Below, in pieces: positions 50,012 through 51,058 of a stretch of 59,322 nt of DNA. The DNA lies in contig JALSQW010000035.1 in assembly GCA_026985095.1 (NCBI GenBank), positions 1 through 59,322 of the forward strand, in the 5' to 3' direction. The notes below the pieces were generated by a model. It was not told the origin of the DNA. It worked only from the letters and a program-made list of their open reading frames with translations, and made no database searches. Every line of letters starts with the position of its first letter. The first letter of the stretch is position 1. Position numbers and translations under genes: made by a program. Source of the stretch: Acidimicrobiia bacterium (GTDB lineage: Bacteria; Actinomycetota; Acidimicrobiia; Spongiisociales; UBA5794).

Positions 50012-51058
50012 TCACCCTTCGGGCCACGACCGCCCGTCGGGGAACAACCGCTCGAAGTCCTTCGGGAACATGGTGAAGGCGGGGAGCCGGTCGAGGACCC
50101 TCCCCGCCATGAGGCCCGATCGGGCGATCCCGCGGAGCGGGTCGAAGACGGTGCCGGTGCGGCGGTCGACGAGACCGTCGGCGGCCCTCTCGAGGTCGAC
50201 GACGGCGTCGCCGACCCGACGGGAGTACACGGCCCATCGGTTCGGATCGTCGGGGTCGACGACGACGGCGATCTCGATCCCGGCCACCACGTCGTCGACG
50301 ACCCCCGCGTCGCGCAGGACGGTCACGTCGTAGGAGACCACCTCGGTACCGAGGTCGACGACGATCGCCATCATCTCGAGCCCGACCGCGAGGCGCCGCC
50401 CGGGGGCGTCGAGAGCCACTGTGTCGGGATGCTGCGTCGTCCATTCCGCCCAAGTGGTGAGGGTCGACGGGACGAGGGCGAGCCGGGAACCGGTGAGGGG
50501 GCCGGCGATGGCTTCCCCGGTCGGTTGACTCCAGATCGACCCGGTGGCGTGATCCCACCAGGTCATCGCGTTGAGGTAGAGGGCTCCTTGGTTGCCGAGG
50601 ACGAGGGCCTCCCCGTCGAGTTCTCGGCGATGGACCATCGCCGTGCCGCACAGCGGTCACCACGAGACGAGGATCGGCGCCCCGTCGAGCGAGTCGATCA
50701 CCATCTCCCGCCGGTCGAGGAACCCGACCGGATAGGCCTTGGCTTCCCGTTCGCCGGCGACGCCGATGACCAAGGTCTCCGGGTCCCATCCGGCGTCGGC
50801 GGCCGAGACGAACATCGGGTCGTAGACCGGTGGGATCTGGTCTCGACCGAGAAGTGGGCGGTACCCGGCGGGGAGCGTCTCTCCGGCGCGTATAGGGTCG
50901 TACACCGCACCGGGATCGACGGTCGCCGACACGCCGCCACCGGCGATCCGCGGCGCCGAACCCGACGGCCCACCCGCCCGTCCTGCCGCGATCGCGACAC
51001 CGACGGCCGCCACCGCGACGAGGCCCAGGACGAACGTGATCTTCCGATCGGCACCCAT
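50012..51058 (-). CDS. DUF3179 family protein with in-frame TGA, candidate selenoprotein
   Basis: Read through a TGA at 50657-50659, the frame gives one 348-aa DUF3179 protein. It has an N-terminal hydrophobic anchor (about 7-26), then R-E-M-V-I-D-S-L-D-G-A-P-I-L-V-S-W, the TGA at codon 134, and P-L-C-G-T-A-M-V. The second part has Y-L-N-A-M-T-W-W-D-H-A-T-G-S-I-W-S-Q and T-T-W-A-E-W-T-T-Q-H-P-D-T. In the family the TGA position is the first Cys of W-C-P-L-C, so insertion of selenocysteine would give a U-x-x-C pair with Cys137. Both halves are in the same frame, and the downstream half has no ribosome site or signal of its own. Role of DUF3179 proteins is unknown. A nonsense mutation or sequencing error is the alternative. 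Confidence 0.75.
50625..50643 (-). promoter_or_regulatory. Candidate bacterial SECIS hairpin
   Basis: In the mRNA sense the sequence is CGGCGATG, loop GTC, CATCGCCG: a perfect 8-bp stem with a 3-nt loop that begins with G. It starts 13 nt after the TGA, with the loop 21 nt after it. Bacterial SECIS elements are described as lying just downstream of the UGA, with a short loop and a G among its first bases. The hairpin sits inside the coding frame, as expected in bacteria. Confidence 0.65.

Follow-up and report, generated by a model that had tools for sequence, protein, structure and literature searches.

A DUF3179 gene with an in-frame TGA, very probably encoding a selenoprotein, in an Acidimicrobiia bacterium

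We report that a DUF3179 gene in the 59,322-nucleotide stretch of DNA analysed here (the window) is, with a probability of about 95%, a genuine selenoprotein gene. The ribosome very probably reads its internal UGA as selenocysteine (Sec), given the Sec genes of the host genome, a TGA column shared with relatives, hairpin codons that are frozen, stem pairs that are kept and the Sec/Cys changes seen on the tree.

The gene, its internal TGA and the host genome

The gene is read in the direction 51058 to 50012. The features referred to below are as follows (all on the minus strand):

50012..51058, minus strand: very probable DUF3179 selenoprotein gene, 348 aa (read-through match to PF11376 of 167.5 bits; 138 genomes of the host's order contain 44 subfamily copies)
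50014-50012, minus strand: last TGA, the real stop codon
50657..50659, minus strand: in-frame TGA, very probable Sec codon for residue 134, where UxxC begins (column with 82 TGA, 3 TGC and 1 TGT)
50648..50650, minus strand: codon of Cys137, the putative resolving Cys of UxxC (no variation among 40 and among 60 aligned rows)
50625..50643, minus strand: probable bacterial SECIS hairpin (stem of 8 bp, loop GUC, 13 nt between UGA and stem; conserved stem, within published bSECIS limits)
50984..51049, minus strand: predicted N-terminal transmembrane helix or signal anchor, residues 4-25 (hydrophobic; AlphaFold helix of low confidence, pLDDT about 41-54)
50411..50812, minus strand: repeat 1, residues about 83-216, predicted Rieske-like beta fold with UxxC (model pLDDT 95.8; Rieske matches)
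50024..50368, minus strand: repeat 2, residues about 231-345, same predicted fold, no CxxC (hhalign to repeat 1; Rieske ferredoxin match)

The sole interruption of the DUF3179 frame is the TGA at 50659-50657, which takes the place of the first Cys of the W-C-P-L-C motif. Reading through it yields 348 aa with U134 and C137 (W-U-P-L-C at 133-137, in the context ...ILVSWUPLCGTAMVHRR...), so that the second Cys is kept, as an earlier reading of the sequence alone had noted. That reading also described two collinear halves in one frame, split by the TGA alone, and named no strand. Pfam supports this: DUF3179 (PF11376, gathering score 27) matches the read-through protein at 167.5 bits (6e-49); the separate halves score 42.1 and 88.1 bits. 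This identifies the halves as collinear parts of one protein. An NCBIfam search assigned no family to the protein.

The perfect 8-bp hairpin with loop GTC, proposed to begin 13 nt after the TGA, was found at 50643-50625 (CGGCGATG-GTC-CATCGCCG); its loop begins about 21-22 nt after the TGA and its fold energy is -11.7 kcal/mol. The limits for bSECIS elements, as stated in PMC13188914, are a loop of 3-9 nt, a stem of 4-16 bp, a G in the first two loop positions, a distance of 16-37 nt from the UGA and at most -7.5 kcal/mol. With 3 nt, 8 bp, GUC, 21 nt and -11.7 kcal/mol the DUF3179 hairpin lies within every one of them. In the GC-rich window DNA, a perfect stem of at least 8 bp occurs in the permitted range at 0.6% of random positions. 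The hairpin of a single gene is not evidence on its own, since 9 TGA triplets of the window (in any frame) precede such a stem and the fold z-score is just -1.5. It is the TGA column in 82 of 86 copies, together with the frozen hairpin codons in 40 TGA copies, that places the hairpin far beyond chance. SelB and Sec-tRNA would bind the hairpin starting 13 nt after the UGA, and insertion of selenocysteine would then give the 348-residue protein; actual insertion at residue 134 is very likely.

The host genome, 2.93 Mb in 70 contigs and rated 100% complete, contains the complete Sec machinery that the sequence-only reading had proposed to look for: SelB (294 bits) adjoins SelA (402 bits) on one contig (C23), SelD is matched at 396 bits, and SelC, the tRNA-Sec, scores 73.6 bits and is called tRNA-SeC by ARAGORN. 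The SelD gene carries an in-frame TGA of its own (L018:1532-1534) with a hairpin, GGCGCAG-GTC-CTGCGCC, about 26 nt downstream, which has the same G-GUC-C top as the DUF3179 hairpin; SelD is a second selenoprotein of this genome. As selA is found above the cut-off in 110 of the 138 genomes of the host's order, SelA presence discriminates little. Three TGA copies lie in genomes without a full selA, all of which are at most 75% complete. Separately, the selA match of genome G055 (G055:C24:10358-11668) has one in-frame TGA, which may be an error.

A genome-wide reassignment of TGA, for instance to Trp, is extremely improbable. Nothing was found in its favour, the gene itself stops at a TGA where its relatives stop, SelA, SelB, SelD and tRNA-Sec are all in the genome, and the aligned relatives have Cys, not Trp, at this position.

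The motif column and the hairpin among relatives

In the first sample, 138 genomes of the host's order, the column was read in 44 distinct subfamily copies, giving 40 TGA, 3 TGC and 1 TGT. A scan of named genomes enlarged the set to 86 copies, with 82 TGA and 4 Cys codons at the one column, so that the suggested alternation of TGA and Cys is indeed found. The scan was seeded by peptide patterns (including TAMVHR), which biases it toward the subfamily but toward no codon. Hosts of the 86 copies are mainly Acidimicrobiia MAGs and also Chloroflexota; Nitriliruptorales and Spirochaetaceae are each the label of a single record. When 396 genomes were drawn evenly from the host's phylum, the subfamily turned up in just 6, with TGA in 5 of these. 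The tree of copies requires four separate Sec/Cys changes, at least three of which are forced by well-supported branches. One genome (G020) carries a TGA copy and a TGC copy (L058) side by side.

These counts bear on whether the TGA is merely a nonsense mutation or a sequencing error, and the gene a pseudogene or an artefact. The assembly is admittedly a draft of 70 contigs. Nonetheless, an identical TGA column recurs in 82 copies from many assemblies, and the remaining frame is open and conserved; the conservation of the column refutes this explanation, to which we assign a negligible probability.

It might also be argued that two proteins are made, the first ending at the TGA and the second re-initiating at ATG 50638 (a codon that sits within the hairpin), as each of the 40 TGA copies from the host's order has an in-frame ATG 18 nt past the TGA. 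We consider this very improbable: a ribosome-binding site, already noted as absent in the earlier reading, is not visible upstream of ATG 50638, four relatives have an unbroken protein with Cys at the column, and the break would split one folded repeat. Moreover, the frozen stem codons and the Sec genes would be left unexplained.

Decoding as selenocysteine, on the other hand, agrees with the way the hairpin is conserved as RNA. Across the 40 TGA copies from the host's order the hairpin codons are frozen whereas synonymous codons elsewhere vary: ACG, GCG and CAT are each used in 40/40 (against 29/147, 40/118 and 9/56 for the same amino acids in the surrounding codons), CGC in 39/40 (20/77), and a further stem codon is GTC in 35/40 (93/165) and GTT in 5/40. 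Outside Chloroflexota each stem pair is retained in 73-75 of 75 TGA copies. At locus L147 the hairpin reads CGGGAATG-GTC-CATTCCCG, with two pairs altered on both sides, a compensatory change seen once. Most Chloroflexota TGA copies have another hairpin in the corresponding position behind the TGA, of 6 bp and with a loop of 8 nt (it is the predominant form among L169, L171-L174 and L177).

Three of the four Cys copies show an eroded hairpin; the TGC copy L058 retains the hairpin with one G-U pair, as expected for a recent change (as if from Sec to Cys). A generic stem search on the Cys paralogues was noisy. Overall, the hairpin is kept in TGA copies and eroded in most Cys copies. All checks run among those that the sequence-only reading had proposed turned out as it expected, and its central claim of a selenoprotein form of DUF3179 stands on TGA in 82 of 86 copies, frozen hairpin codons and the presence of Sec genes.

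Predicted fold, neighbourhood and possible role

The AlphaFold model of the whole protein (pLDDT 87.7) consists of the N-terminal helix and two repeats; repeat 1 modelled alone reaches pLDDT 95.8. By sequence comparison the two repeats are homologous (hhalign probability 97.9%, E 4.8e-13). In VIA-align searches the best match of the repeat 1 model has Z 8.3 (97 aa, 3.5 A) and all 50 rows among the matches listed are Rieske domains; for the repeat 2 model the best match is a Rieske ferredoxin with Z 9.2 (92 aa, 3.2 A), and again all matches listed are Rieske. Foldseek E values of the repeat models against Rieske domains are weak (0.05 and 0.19), and comparing profiles of the repeats with those of Rieske domains taken from related genomes gave no significant similarity; the likeness is therefore taken as a fold lead. 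The Pfam search of the protein gave no match to PF00355 (Rieske), and our searches found no solved structure among its relatives by sequence. In the models each DUF3179 repeat appears to resemble a Rieske domain or Rieske ferredoxin in fold, but the protein differs in being duplicated, in having no profile similarity and in the absence of the CxH...CxxH ligand motif from the aligned sequences of both repeats.

The UxxC links two strands of repeat 1 in the model and is confined to that repeat, repeat 2 having no Cys pair; its position would correspond to that of cluster loop 1. A real selenoprotein could use UxxC to bind a metal or metalloid instead of for redox catalysis, as both repeats resemble Rieske cluster domains and loop 134-137 connects two strands like cluster loops do. 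We regard this as rather unlikely. The Rieske motif is missing, just two Cys/Sec ligands are available (both in repeat 1), and the CcdA/TlpA neighbourhood of some relatives suggests thiol redox.

CcdA/DsbD_TM genes are near 8 of 80 loci and TlpA-like genes near 7 of 80, in about five lineages; in the loci inspected they are convergent to the DUF3179 gene. Both types occur at L107, L112, L114, L121, L147, L150 and L176, where an MFS gene is present in 6 of 7 clusters. Such neighbours hint at an envelope thiol relay. Beside the DUF3179 copy of the window no CcdA/TlpA genes were seen; the genes next to it encode a glyoxalase-family protein and an Rce1-like protease. A small membrane protein is encoded 3' of the Sec-DUF3179 gene, in the same orientation, at 18 of 80 loci (L107, L117, L122 and 15 others); the one tested, from L117, has no Pfam match.

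A redox role in the envelope is the reading we favour, with reasonable though not high confidence. The protein, probably membrane-anchored and facing the outside of the cytoplasm, would carry U134 and C137 as a selenol/thiol pair within repeat 1, the earlier of the two Rieske-like beta repeats, neither of which has a [2Fe-2S] ligand motif. The pair would most likely cycle between an Se-S bridge and the reduced form, and the protein would act on envelope thiols or small oxidants as an oxidoreductase, perhaps fed through a CcdA/TlpA-type relay. The gene structure, the TGA column, the conserved hairpin, the Sec machinery and the repeats in the models are what has been shown; that the protein is exported, has selenol/thiol redox chemistry and has such partners is our inference. 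A bolder and tentative idea, which we consider possible but doubtful, is that DUF3179 has a Rieske fold in duplicate whose iron-sulfur cluster has been lost and whose cluster loop 1 has given way to a UxxC/CxxC pair; the protein would then be a selenol/thiol oxidoreductase of the envelope that does not have the thioredoxin fold.

Relation to known DUF3179 selenoproteins

One statement of the sequence-only reading, that no DUF3179 selenoprotein was established to its knowledge, has to be corrected. DUF3179 (pfam11376, UxxC/T) appears among the predicted prokaryotic selenoprotein families in the reviews PMC9312934 and PMC13188914, and the former credits it to Zhang and Gladyshev 2007 (Olavius algarvensis symbiont). 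Judged by its description in the reviews, that protein is alike in belonging to the same Pfam family and in having Sec first in the same short motif; it stems from the study of a deltaproteobacterial symbiont, whereas the protein of the window belongs to a subfamily from Acidimicrobiia (Actinomycetota), whose SECIS is its own and nearly invariant. The NCBI product name 'DUF3179 domain-containing (seleno)protein' is also already on public records (hits H13 and H19), which are haloarchaeal and 32-34% identical over residues 54-216 only. As selenium-containing DUF3179 members were known before, we describe a new family member and not a new kind of selenoprotein.

New are the largely Sec-based Acidimicrobiia/Chloroflexota subfamily, its SECIS, with an unusually clear conservation pattern, and a structural lead. 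Genes of this type are prone to annotation as two fragments or as pseudogenes. Three papers in the literature searched name DUF3179, and none of the text consulted assigns it a function. The Rieske-like fold together with the CcdA/TlpA neighbourhood provides a concrete, testable idea of its role. For the organisms, the results mean that a mostly uncultured actinobacterial order routinely uses selenocysteine in a probable envelope protein.
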